From: Desulfobulbaceae bacterium
Lineage (GTDB): Bacteria > Desulfobacterota > Desulfobulbia > Desulfobulbales > Desulfobulbaceae
DNA: 40,370 nt
Direction: 5' to 3'
Assembly: GCA_011389815.1 (NCBI GenBank)
Contig: JAABTP010000023.1
Span: 1 to 40,370, forward strand
Shown here: in pieces, positions 1 through 2,767 of the stretch
Layout of the letters: each line of letters begins with the position of its first letter
How positions within the stretch are numbered: position 1 is the first letter of the stretch
Notes under the pieces: generated by a model
The model's database searches: none
Seen by the model: the letters and a program-made list of their open reading frames with translations, nothing else
Told to the model about the DNA's origin: nothing
Made by a program: the position numbers and the translations under genes

Positions 1-428
1 GATTGCTGCAATTGTTGAGTTATCAACGGGTAAGAGGTCTCTTCCTCAACAGAAATTAACGATAATTGCAAATGGCACATACCAGGTATCGGCTTACCAT
101 AGACAGAAGAGAAGAACCGCCCGAGCCCATAGGTCTTTTTACCTGCCTTCGGAGTGACGACCTCGTCTCCACCCAAAAGAGTGACTCCAGAATTTCCCAA
201 CAGGTGGGTACGGATAAAAATCCACTGGACCTTTGCCCAGTCAATTTTTGCTTTAAAAAACCGTTGGATGGTTCGATAACTACCGCCCTTTTCCGTCCAA
301 CGTGATATGCCAAGCATAGTAACTCTATCAGGCATAGACAAGATCGCTGTAACAATAATACCCAAATGACGTAAAGTAGTGTTGTCAAGGCAAGGGGTTA
401 AACAACAGAGTATGCTTAAAATGTCCAT
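1..428 (-). CDS. DDE transposase, N-terminal part (runs off window)
   Basis: The frame is open from ATG 426-428 to the window edge, giving about 142 residues beginning MDILSILCCL. A CAGGAG ribosome binding site lies six bases upstream. Around residues 85-115 there is GGDEVVTPKAGKKTYGLGRF followed by FSSVYGKPIPG. This matches the first catalytic Asp region of IS4/IS701-like transposases, where an Asp is followed by a PKxGKKTxGxGRF stretch. The C-terminal part with the other catalytic acids is off the window. The start sits inside the 3' end of the truncated Uma2 gene (416-799), overlapping it by 13 bases. Family placement is from memory of the motif, so the exact IS group is uncertain. Confidence 0.75.
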   Translation of the reverse strand, partial: MDILSILCCLTPCLDNTTLRHLGIIVTAILSMPDRVTMLGISRWTEKGGSYRTIQRFFKAKIDWAKVQWIFIRTHLLGNSGVTLLGGDEVVTPKAGKKTYGLGRFFSSVYGKPIPGMCHLQLSLISVEEETSYPLITQQLQQ

Positions 429-508
429 TTTGTTCTCCTGAATGATTTATCGTTTACACAATAATAATCATCCAGAAGAGATTGACAATTGATTGGCGAA
501 GGTATTGA
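1..508 (-). mobile_element. Partial insertion sequence (5' end of a DDE transposase element)
   Basis: The window opens inside an insertion sequence that runs off its left edge. The visible part carries the transposase start (428 down to 1) and about 80 bases of leader. The right boundary is inferred: the adjacent Uma2 gene keeps family-like sequence up to residue Ile97 (509-511) and then changes to unrelated sequence, so the element probably ends close to 508. No terminal inverted repeat or target duplication can be shown because the other end is outside the window. Confidence 0.6.
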
Positions 509-799
509 TATTTCAGGAGCACGTTTATACGGTGTATCGTATCCGTACTGTGCAAAGAATTCATCTGAAATCCAGGCCACATCAGCGACTTTAACGCCCT
601 GCGATGTCTGGATGGAACATTCTGTTATAACCTTACCCTGTCCTTTTTTTCCCTCCTTTATCTTCGCCCCGATTTCAAACTGAATATGGCCGTGGCTATT
701 ACTTGCAGGACTCATCAAAATCTTGCCCCACTTATTCAGCTCTATCTTGAAAGGGAGATCTTTCAGAAAAGGATTATTGATGAGCTGAGCCCATTCCAT
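416..799 (-). pseudogene. Uma2 family (DUF820) endonuclease, truncated by IS
   Basis: Residues 1-97 follow the Uma2/DUF820 pattern closely: MEWAQLINNPFLKDLPFKIE, then GKILMSPASNSHG, then the CSIQTSQGVKVADVAWIS block and a YKRAPEI segment. Family members continue after PEI with a conserved EIxSPSN region and run to roughly 180-200 residues. Here the frame instead reads SIPSPINCQSLLDDYYCVND and stops at 127 residues, inside the start region of the transposase. The missing C-terminal part contributes to the PD-(D/E)XK nuclease core, so the product is probably inactive. Uma2 genes are numerous in cyanobacteria and some Desulfobacterota; their role is poorly known. Confidence 0.75.
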
Positions 800-919: not shown

Positions 920-1657
920 CTACTGCAAAACAAGACGTGAATTAACCGGCTGCACGGAACGATTATTTGGGTGCTTTAAGATCTTCACAAGCTTTTTGAT
1001 CTGCCCTTCACTCACCGGAACAGGATTTTTCATAACCATCCATAATACGCCTTCGGTGCAGGGAGGGGTGGTTAACGACCCATTAACACGATAATAATCT
1101 TTATTGTTTGGCAGTAAGTGATCAGCTCTCACCTGTGATGTCATACTTGCTTTCTTGCCCTTTTCAGCAGGCATCTGCTGCCAGATTTTTTTCAGCTCTG
1201 TATTTTCATTACCAAGGGTATACATTACTGCGATGATAGCAAGGTTTCCATCGGTATCAGTGTGGATAAAATGAGCTTCTATGGGGAGCTGCCCCCCGTT
1301 AACCAGATTTTCGCTGGGTGCGTGAAAGTTAATCTGCTTGAGGGCAAATACTTGACCATTTACCGTAATGGTAGAACCTGCTGTGTATTTTGCCTGAATA
1401 GCATGATCATTATGCGCAACTTCAGTTACCAGCCCGGTGTAATTAAATTTGATCGGTTTCAGCTCTGCTTCAGTGAAGTCGGTCAGATCAATGGGTGACT
1501 GGTTGGCACCACTTGCACAGAGGGCATAGGAAGGGTCTAAGGTTCCCCAATGTTCTGGAGCAGTTTTGCCTGTGTATCCCCACTGTCCAGCAGCGGCAAG
1601 GGCATTTCCTGTCGTCAAAGTCAACGCAACAGCGATAGTCGACATTATTTTTTTCAT
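920..1657 (-). CDS. Periplasmic alpha-carbonic anhydrase (altered zinc ligand)
   Basis: The 245-residue product resembles bacterial alpha-carbonic anhydrases, which interconvert CO2 and bicarbonate in the periplasm. The ATG at 1657 was chosen because AGGAG lies six bases upstream and because it starts a signal peptide (MKKIMSTIAV to about residue 22, ending ALAAA). Family features visible are WGY at 26-28, NQSPIDL at 52-58, C47 and C200 (a likely disulfide), EAHFIH at 127-132 and GSLTTPPC at 193-200. The usual zinc motif F/V-H-F-H reads QINFHAPSEN here: the first ligand His is Asn110, while His112 and His129 remain. Activity is therefore uncertain. It stands alone on the minus strand between the Uma2 remnant and GAPDH. 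Confidence 0.85.
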   Translation of the reverse strand: MKKIMSTIAVALTLTTGNALAAAGQWGYTGKTAPEHWGTLDPSYALCASGANQSPIDLTDFTEAELKPIKFNYTGLVTEVAHNDHAIQAKYTAGSTITVNGQVFALKQINFHAPSENLVNGGQLPIEAHFIHTDTDGNLAIIAVMYTLGNENTELKKIWQQMPAEKGKKASMTSQVRADHLLPNNKDYYRVNGSLTTPPCTEGVLWMVMKNPVPVSEGQIKKLVKILKHPNNRSVQPVNSRLVLQ

Positions 1658-1762: not shown

Positions 1763-2767
1763 TTATAATGGCTTGTTTTCTTCCATGTGCAGGACAAGAT
1801 CAAGCATTCGGTTGGAGTACCCCCATTCGTTGTCATACCAGGTCATAATTTTTACTGTGGTACCAAGTACCCGGGTGCAGAGACCATCAACGATGGTCGA
1901 GTGAGGGTCACCCTGAAAGTCAATGGACACCAAGGGCTCGTCGCAATAACGGAGAAAGCGTCCAGCAGCTTCCTGCAAGGCCTTATTCACCTCTGATACT
2001 GTGGTCTCGCGCTCGACCTCTATTACTGCATCTACCAACGAGACATCCGGGGTTGGCACCCGGACAGCCAGCCCATCGAATTTATTTTTTAATTCCGGGA
2101 TAACCAAGGCCACCGCAGCAGCAGCTCCGGTCTTGGTGGGGATCATGGACATGGCCGCAGCCCGTGCCCGACGCAGATCAGAGTGCGGAAAATCCAGCAA
2201 GCGCTGATCTCCGGTATAGGCGTGAACCGTGGTCATAAGTCCCTGCTTGATCCCAAAGTTATTCAGGATGACCTGGGCAACCGGAGCTAAGCAGTTGGTT
2301 GTGCAGGATGCATTGGAAACAACATGATGGGCGGTTGGATCATACTCATCCTCATTGACGCCCATAACAAAGGTTTTCACGCCGCCCTTGGCCGGAGCCG
2401 AGATAATGACCTTGGACGCTCCGGCATCAATATGGGCTCCGGCAGATTCCTGGTCCCTGAAAAGCCCGGTACACTCAAGAACGTATTCTGCACCGACCTC
2501 TTGCCAGGTAATATCTGCAGGATTGCGATGGTTGAAGACAGGTATTTCCTGACCATCAACCAGAATACCATTATCATTGCTTGTGATATCAGCCTGGCTT
2601 ACTCCCATCACCGAATCGTATTTCAACAGATGGGCAATGGTTTTGATATCTGTGAGATCATTGATACCAACAACCTCAATGTCTGCAAATGCTGTATCCT
2701 CGCTCAGTGCGCGAAAAATGTTTCTTCCGATGCGTCCAAATCCGTTAATACCGATTTTTATACTCAT
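1763..2767 (-). CDS. gap: Glyceraldehyde-3-phosphate dehydrogenase, type I
   Basis: This cytoplasmic enzyme oxidises glyceraldehyde-3-phosphate to 1,3-bisphosphoglycerate with NAD+ in glycolysis, or the reverse in gluconeogenesis. The 334 residues are the normal length. The Rossmann motif GFGRIGR is at 9-15, the active-site block SNASCTTNC at 151-159 with nucleophile Cys155, and the paired catalytic His182 in TVHAYTGDQ. The ATG at 2767 has AAGGAAC upstream. The gene is followed 105 bases later by the carbonic anhydrase on the same strand and diverges from der. Asp/Asn in VGINDLTD (33-40) fits NAD rather than NADP preference, although this is inference. Confidence 0.97.
   Translation of the reverse strand: MSIKIGINGFGRIGRNIFRALSEDTAFADIEVVGINDLTDIKTIAHLLKYDSVMGVSQADITSNDNGILVDGQEIPVFNHRNPADITWQEVGAEYVLECTGLFRDQESAGAHIDAGASKVIISAPAKGGVKTFVMGVNEDEYDPTAHHVVSNASCTTNCLAPVAQVILNNFGIKQGLMTTVHAYTGDQRLLDFPHSDLRRARAAAMSMIPTKTGAAAAVALVIPELKNKFDGLAVRVPTPDVSLVDAVIEVERETTVSEVNKALQEAAGRFLRYCDEPLVSIDFQGDPHSTIVDGLCTRVLGTTVKIMTWYDNEWGYSNRMLDLVLHMEENKPL

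Follow-up and report, generated by a model that had tools for sequence, protein, structure and literature searches.

Recurrent replacement of zinc-ligand histidines in a secreted alpha-carbonic anhydrase-like protein of a Desulfobulbaceae bacterium and its relatives

The secreted alpha-class carbonic anhydrase-like protein (alpha-CA) encoded in a 40,370-nucleotide stretch of a Desulfobulbaceae genome (the window) was found to carry asparagine in place of the first of its three zinc-ligand histidines, and comparison with its relatives showed that ligand histidines were lost four to five times within one clade. Recurrent change of the zinc site with the protein kept indicates that, probably, the usual enzyme activity was lost or weakened and the protein is retained for another reason. 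The explanation held here with reasonable, though far from full, confidence is that zinc catalysis was weakened or lost by the His94-to-Asn replacement (human CA II numbering) as one of these four to five losses, and that the fold was kept for another role.

The ORF of the window starts with an ATG at 1657 and encodes 245 residues; an upstream GTG start would give 262 residues (Table 1). The protein scored 128 bits against the Pfam Carb_anhydrase profile (PF00194), which has a curated cut-off of 27, and covered profile positions 2-251 out of 254. The closest solved match was 4c3t with an E-value of 9e-74 and others were 6im0 and 6eki, all of them bacterial alpha-CAs. Three residue alignments with solved bacterial alpha-CAs showed that LKQINFHAPSE of the window aligned ungapped with LKQFHFHAPSE, and IEAHFIH with FEAHFVH. 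This places Asn110 at the first His of FHFH and leaves no alternative His in that region as first ligand. The initial annotation had identified Asn110 as the first-ligand replacement with His112, His129, the Thr motif and both Cys kept, and the alignment agreed on each point: codon 1330-1328 is AAC, His occupies that column in 58 of the 65 aligned rows, and Glu116 is retained as well. The window protein thus has Asn110-His112-His129 instead of the three His of an active alpha-CA, together with the gatekeepers Glu116 and Thr196 and the disulfide pair Cys47 and Cys200 of the family. As an alpha-CA homolog without at least one zinc-ligand His it shares a sequence feature of the carbonic anhydrase-related proteins (CARPs), and its Asn-His-His set differs from the His-His-Gln set of the eta class. 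It resembles the bacterial alpha-CAs 4c3t, 6im0 and 6eki in family, length, Cys pair, SLTTPPC motif, Glu/Thr gatekeepers and the ungapped ligand region, but differs from them in the first ligand and in having Ile at the equivalents of Val121 and Val143. We take Ile131 to stand at Val121 and Ile141 at Val143 of the CO2 pocket, and His85 to be the equivalent of the proton-shuttle His64; the human numbering of Glu106, Thr199, Gln92, His64, Val121 and Val143 was mapped by motif and is assumed here. A structure prediction from eight aligned sequences gave a mean pLDDT of 53 and was not used. Finally, the search of the window's genome for alpha-CAs yielded one copy only. The zinc ligands of human CA II are His94, His96 and His119 (PMC5437132, in excerpt).

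Table 1. Features of the alpha-CA gene and its neighbour, in positions of the window
Feature	Position	Strand	Basis
Secreted alpha-class carbonic anhydrase-like protein, 245 aa	920..1657	(-)	Pfam PF00194, E 6e-37
N-terminal Sec-type signal peptide, residues 1-22 (MKK...ALAA)	1592..1657	(-)	judged by eye from translation
Asn110, codon AAC, replacing first zinc-ligand His (His94 of human CA II)	1328..1330	(-)	alignment
His112, second zinc ligand (His96), retained	1322..1324	(-)	alignment
His129, third zinc ligand (His119), retained	1271..1273	(-)	alignment
Ile131 instead of near-invariant Val	1265..1267	(-)	alignment
Ile141 instead of near-invariant Val; altered rows L020 and L035 also have Ile here	1235..1237	(-)	
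Asp84 instead of near-invariant Gly, adjoining His85	1406..1408	(-)	alignment
Glu116 (gatekeeper Glu106), retained	1310..1312	(-)	alignment
Thr196 (gatekeeper Thr199), retained	1070..1072	(-)	alignment
gap (glyceraldehyde-3-phosphate dehydrogenase), directly upstream of CA, conserved neighbour	1763..2767	(-)	

Whole-genome searches recovered the protein from 6 of 8 genomes in the genus, from 31 of 73 in the family and from 61 of 257 in the order. A total of 68 loci were read in addition to the window. Four rows were dropped before tree building, namely L016 and L071, which are the same 30-residue fragment of G002, and L069 and L070, which were divergent or broken and H-H-H wherever readable; this left 65 rows, 64 of them distinct (L002 equals L060). 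The partial L009 was kept out of the alignment, and small matches in G245, G215:C66, G284 (second piece) and G394 were left out. The 65 rows comprised 58 with the ligand set H-H-H and seven with altered sets: N-H-H in the window, L011 and L020, D-H-Q in L033 and L035, A-H-Q in L037 and T-H-E in L023. The His94 equivalent was replaced in all seven altered rows, the His119 equivalent in four and the His96 equivalent in none. Nine of the 11 replaced positions hold N, D, Q or E, whose side chains are still able to bind metal. In a draw of 395 genomes from the phylum, 31 had a match and all 26 newly readable sequences were H-H-H; this baseline excludes L101 and L102 (unreadable fragments) and L001, L091 and L096 (counted already), and comparison beyond Desulfobacterota consisted of six proteobacterial sequences (L003-L008). 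Many of the alpha-CAs in the phylum draw presumably come from sulfate reducers, and since these proteins keep H-H-H, zinc poisoning by sulfide is a weak candidate for the cause of the change. Other loci were unusual in structure. L071 (G002:C1:1715731-1715820) is a C-terminal alpha-CA fragment 17 kb from an intact copy and is perhaps the remnant of a duplicate. L074 (G314:C45:594-1304 and 1909-2601) is a pair of adjoining alpha-CA genes, both H-H-H, with an in-frame TAA within one match. The alpha-CA matches L064, L065, L066 and L068 (G230, G244, G246 and G184), from three other families of the order, lie within frames of about 900 aa, which suggests fusion proteins.

The same Asn was found in the ortholog L011, encoded by AAT, in the single-contig genome of another species of the window's genus, which rules out a base-calling error. 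The window's genome is a draft in 233 contigs, which is the point in favour of a sequencing, amplification or assembly error there; besides the single-contig congener, altered sets in five further genomes from three other genera, with open frames throughout, stand against it. The chance of such an error is negligible and for the pattern as a whole it is already refuted; the Asn110 substitution is real and recurrent. It had also been asked whether Asn is a clade feature. This held in part, with Asn in two of the six full-length alpha-CAs of the genus and H-H-H in the other four.

A maximum-likelihood tree of the 65 rows, built with the two variable ligand columns removed, placed all seven altered rows inside one 16-row clade (support 96/87) nested in a 27-row clade (99/98); none of the 49 rows outside the 16-row clade was altered. 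The minimum number of ligand-set changes on the tree was five. AU topology tests, for which the groups were chosen after the tree had been seen, ruled out a single ancestral loss (single origin of all seven, p = 7e-34) and also rejected grouping of the D-H-Q rows L033 and L035 (p = 3e-11), which are from two genera, and of the N-H-H rows (window, L011 and L020; p = 0.004). For the four groups window/L011, L020, L023/L035 and L033/L037, five of the six pairings were tested, L020 with L033/L037 being left out. L020 with L023/L035 (p = 0.002, or 0.0024), L023/L035 with L033/L037 (p = 6e-9), L033/L037 with window/L011 (p = 0.0005) and L023/L035 with window/L011 (p = 0.0002) were all rejected. Sisterhood of L033 and L037 was compatible with the data (p = 0.22), and since the other tested groupings were rejected the number of losses is four to five.

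The gene gap adjoins the alpha-CA gene on the same strand in all 16 loci given and in L017, L022 and L027, and lies within 0.6 to 0.9 kb of it in L025 and L039; it was not seen in the fetched flanks of L038, L040-L042 and L002-L008. The shared gap neighbourhood indicates that the alpha-CA genes of the clade are positional orthologs. In the congener G004 (93% complete), gap is present (L123, C10, 4055-5056) but the 1.5 kb downstream of it lacks an alpha-CA and the whole genome gave no alpha-CA match, which is an outright loss of the gene; the genome of G005 (69% complete) gave no match either. Downstream of the CA gene of the window, at 416-799 (-), there is a short Uma2-like frame that scored below the Pfam cut-off, and among the 16 loci a match to it was seen 0.5 kb downstream of the CA gene in G006 only.

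Altered copies remain under purifying selection. With a GY94-type codon model on 16 taxa, in our own implementation with no check on simulated data and with large synonymous distances among the taxa, omega was 0.158 on altered branches and 0.108 on unaltered ones (LRT 7.8, p = 0.005), and omega = 1 on altered branches was rejected (LRT 319). Altered branches were likewise higher when compared with H-H-H tips (0.159 against 0.110, p = 0.02) and within the window's genus (0.171 against 0.078, p = 0.001). Omega of the separate altered groups ranged from 0.14 to 0.19 and the groups were mutually indistinguishable (p = 0.93). For the N-H-H pair the stem had an omega of 0.27 and the tips, which differed from the background (p = 0.025), one of 0.14; a burst on the stem followed by renewed constraint was not accepted because the difference between stem and tips was not significant (p = 0.16).

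The raised omega on altered branches would also be expected if the gene were slowly decaying, that is, if it were turning dispensable as another CA did its work and the altered copies were early stages of loss. The absence of the gene from G004, both beside gap and elsewhere in the genome, the 30-residue C-terminal fragment in G002 and the signal-peptide-like start of a beta-class CA in the host fit this course as well. Decay is improbable, as all seven altered frames are full length, with matches spanning residues 1-245 and no internal stop, the N-H-H tips, which postdate the ligand loss, have a low omega (LRT against 1 = 108), both N-H-H congeners keep Asn through different codons, and three altered genomes have no detected beta-CA.

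Changes in the altered rows extended beyond the ligands. A total of 47 sites were near-invariant in the 49 outside rows, 15 of them active-site positions from a list compiled after the changed positions had been seen, and 32 others. At 13 active-site positions, with the replaced ligands excluded, 11 of 91 cells were changed in altered rows, against 1 of 117 in the clade's H-H-H rows; the 32 other sites gave 10 of 224 and 1 of 288, respectively. Gly84, beside the proton-shuttle His, accounted for four of the ten changes of altered rows outside the active site. The excess at active-site over other sites within altered rows had p = 0.02, with cells of related rows not being independent. L037 had three active-site changes; the window, L011 and L033 each had two. 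Some altered rows have changes at second-shell Gln108 and at the shuttle His85 (the shuttle His is also missing from one H-H-H row, L019), and His112, Glu116 and Thr196, the equivalents of His96, Glu106 and Thr199, were unchanged in all seven. Because sites outside the active site changed more too, some of the signal reflects general relaxation; the catalytic cleft was loosened most, but not alone.

These results bear on the proposed sequence of events, in which the His94-to-Asn replacement would alter the zinc site of a secreted, presumably periplasmic, alpha-CA ortholog, fast zinc-dependent CO2 hydration would most likely be lost or much slowed, and the protein, still folded, would be retained for a role independent of hydration, for example periplasmic binding or scaffolding, as in CARPs. 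The initial annotation had left the choice between an altered metal site and a CARP-like protein. Recurrence, cleft changes and purifying selection favour the CARP-like side, and Asn alone is not proof of inactivity. We infer that the window protein has probably lost or weakened activity and may have a binding role.

The same substitution at the same position exists in human CA II H94N, which was reportedly engineered together with H119N and H119Q by Lesburg et al. in 1997; PDB entries 1h4n and 2h4n, which are among the solved matches of the window protein, are presumably H94N. The engineered variants were made in the fast human enzyme, whereas the window protein is natural and has further active-site changes. 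The variants H119N and H119Q are named in PMC10175565 (in excerpt). Excerpts of two papers that cite one and the same 1997 paper describe the activity of H94N as retained but markedly reduced (PMC5437132) and His-to-Gln/Asn changes in human CA II as without effect on activity (PMC6639325). In addition, Plasmodium PfCA has Gln as its third ligand and is an active enzyme, and the first ligand is Asn in P. berghei and P. yoelii and Asp in Theileria (PMC5437132, in excerpt). The activity of H94N and PfCA and the reported lack of effect of Gln/Asn changes speak against lost catalysis.

They would instead suit a retuned site of the kind found in the Plasmodium eta-class enzyme and in human CA II variants engineered to carry a carboxamide ligand. 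N-H-H, D-H-Q and T-H-E would then have a lower affinity for zinc, or a preference for a different divalent metal, and would remain catalytic for CO2 hydration or some other reaction. The possible ligands at nine of the 11 replaced positions and the intact equivalents of Thr199, Glu106 and His96 in all seven rows point the same way and thus away from lost catalysis, and the recurrence of D-H-Q in two genera whose rows stay apart adds to the case for retuning. However, a single base change turns a His codon into one for N, D or Q, so mutation may account for how often these residues occur, and the changes of Gln108 and His85 in some rows fit poorly. A scan for new ligands looked for H, C, D or E in at least four of the seven altered rows and in fewer than a quarter of the 58 H-H-H rows. 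It returned positions 23, 41, 117 and 217, of which only 117 adjoins a ligand motif and only 217 is acidic in all seven altered rows (8 of the 58 H-H-H rows). A-H-Q of L037 is a poor fit to a simple metal swap; it bears on weakened catalysis, which it would support given that, of the human CA II mutants compared, H94A lost the most affinity for zinc (PMC10175565, in excerpt). Overall, retuning, the chief alternative, is considered rather unlikely, and weakened or lost catalysis is preferred.

The apicomplexan eta-CAs, compared by description, are similar to the clade proteins in having an amide or Asp at ligand positions, but they are from unrelated hosts, the bacterial proteins branch within ordinary Desulfobulbales alpha-CAs, and the third ligand of the window protein is His. 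CARPs (VIII, X, XI and others, and T. gondii TgCA_RP) share with the clade proteins the loss of at least one ligand His in a protein that was kept; the clade proteins are bacterial and secreted and arose repeatedly within one small clade. CARPs are inactive through at least one missing ligand His and occur in vertebrates, insects, nematodes and viruses, and activity of TgCA_RP (Phe-His-Gln) was not measurable, according to the excerpted part of PMC5437132. Mussel alpha-CAs with a lost ligand His have also been described (PMC6639325, in excerpt). A narrow open-access search found no earlier report of an altered alpha-CA in cable bacteria or of a bacterial alpha-CA pseudoenzyme, and the main texts of PMC10926707 and PMC12093952 do not mention 'carbonic' or 'zinc'.

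Another class of carbonic anhydrase is encoded in the window's genome. One beta-CA was found there, L073 (G000:C4:4696-5163), with intact CSDSR and HTQC motifs and a signal-peptide-like N-terminus, which indicates that this second-class CA is probably periplasmic. This intact-motif beta-CA and the missing alpha-CA next to gap in the congener count in favour of weakened catalysis. Beta-CAs were found in 47 of the 73 family genomes. Among the altered genomes, G000, G003, G060 and G062 had one or two, and G011, G048 and G050, drafts of 74-87% completeness, had none detected, which counts against lost catalysis. Since altered genomes occur both with and without it, a beta-CA is no predictor of ligand loss, and loss of the ligand owing to its presence was rejected, there being no association across the family genomes.

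The host lineage was examined through 16S probe sites in the 73 family genomes. EXco1016 had zero-mismatch sites only in G003 (two copies) and G006 of the window's genus and was absent from the remaining genomes of that genus, including the window's own, in which no SSU match was found; ENni1437 was present only in G060 and G061 of genus g12, and Egiga134 in none of the 73. EXco1016 is listed for Electrothrix species and ENni1437 for Electronema (PMC11774119, in excerpt). By these probe sites, two of the clade's genera are in all likelihood Candidatus Electrothrix and Candidatus Electronema. The window's host would then be a Candidatus Electrothrix cable bacterium, and ligand losses would fall in both cable genera, with the window and L011 in one and L033 (G060) and L037 in the other. 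The clade also includes genera g4 (L020) and g9 (L023 and L035), outside the two probe-marked genera.

Every readable alpha-CA outside the clade (49 tree rows and 26 phylum-draw sequences) kept the three His. The clade with its four to five breaks offers natural replicates of a possible change from enzyme to pseudoenzyme, for which the H-H-H sister species can serve as controls, and the repeated breaks make the order of ligand loss testable. It is tentatively suggested that in cable bacteria and their kin the protein repeatedly either gained a new metal site or turned into a periplasmic protein without catalysis, in an order from His94 to His119 and never His96, converging on sets like those of eta-CAs. 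The question raised is what role a CA-fold protein has in a current-carrying periplasm, and whether CO2 hydration has moved to the beta-CA. If the ordered conversion is true, bacteria would have in these proteins their own equivalent of the CARPs, one tied to the unusual periplasm of electricity-conducting filaments.
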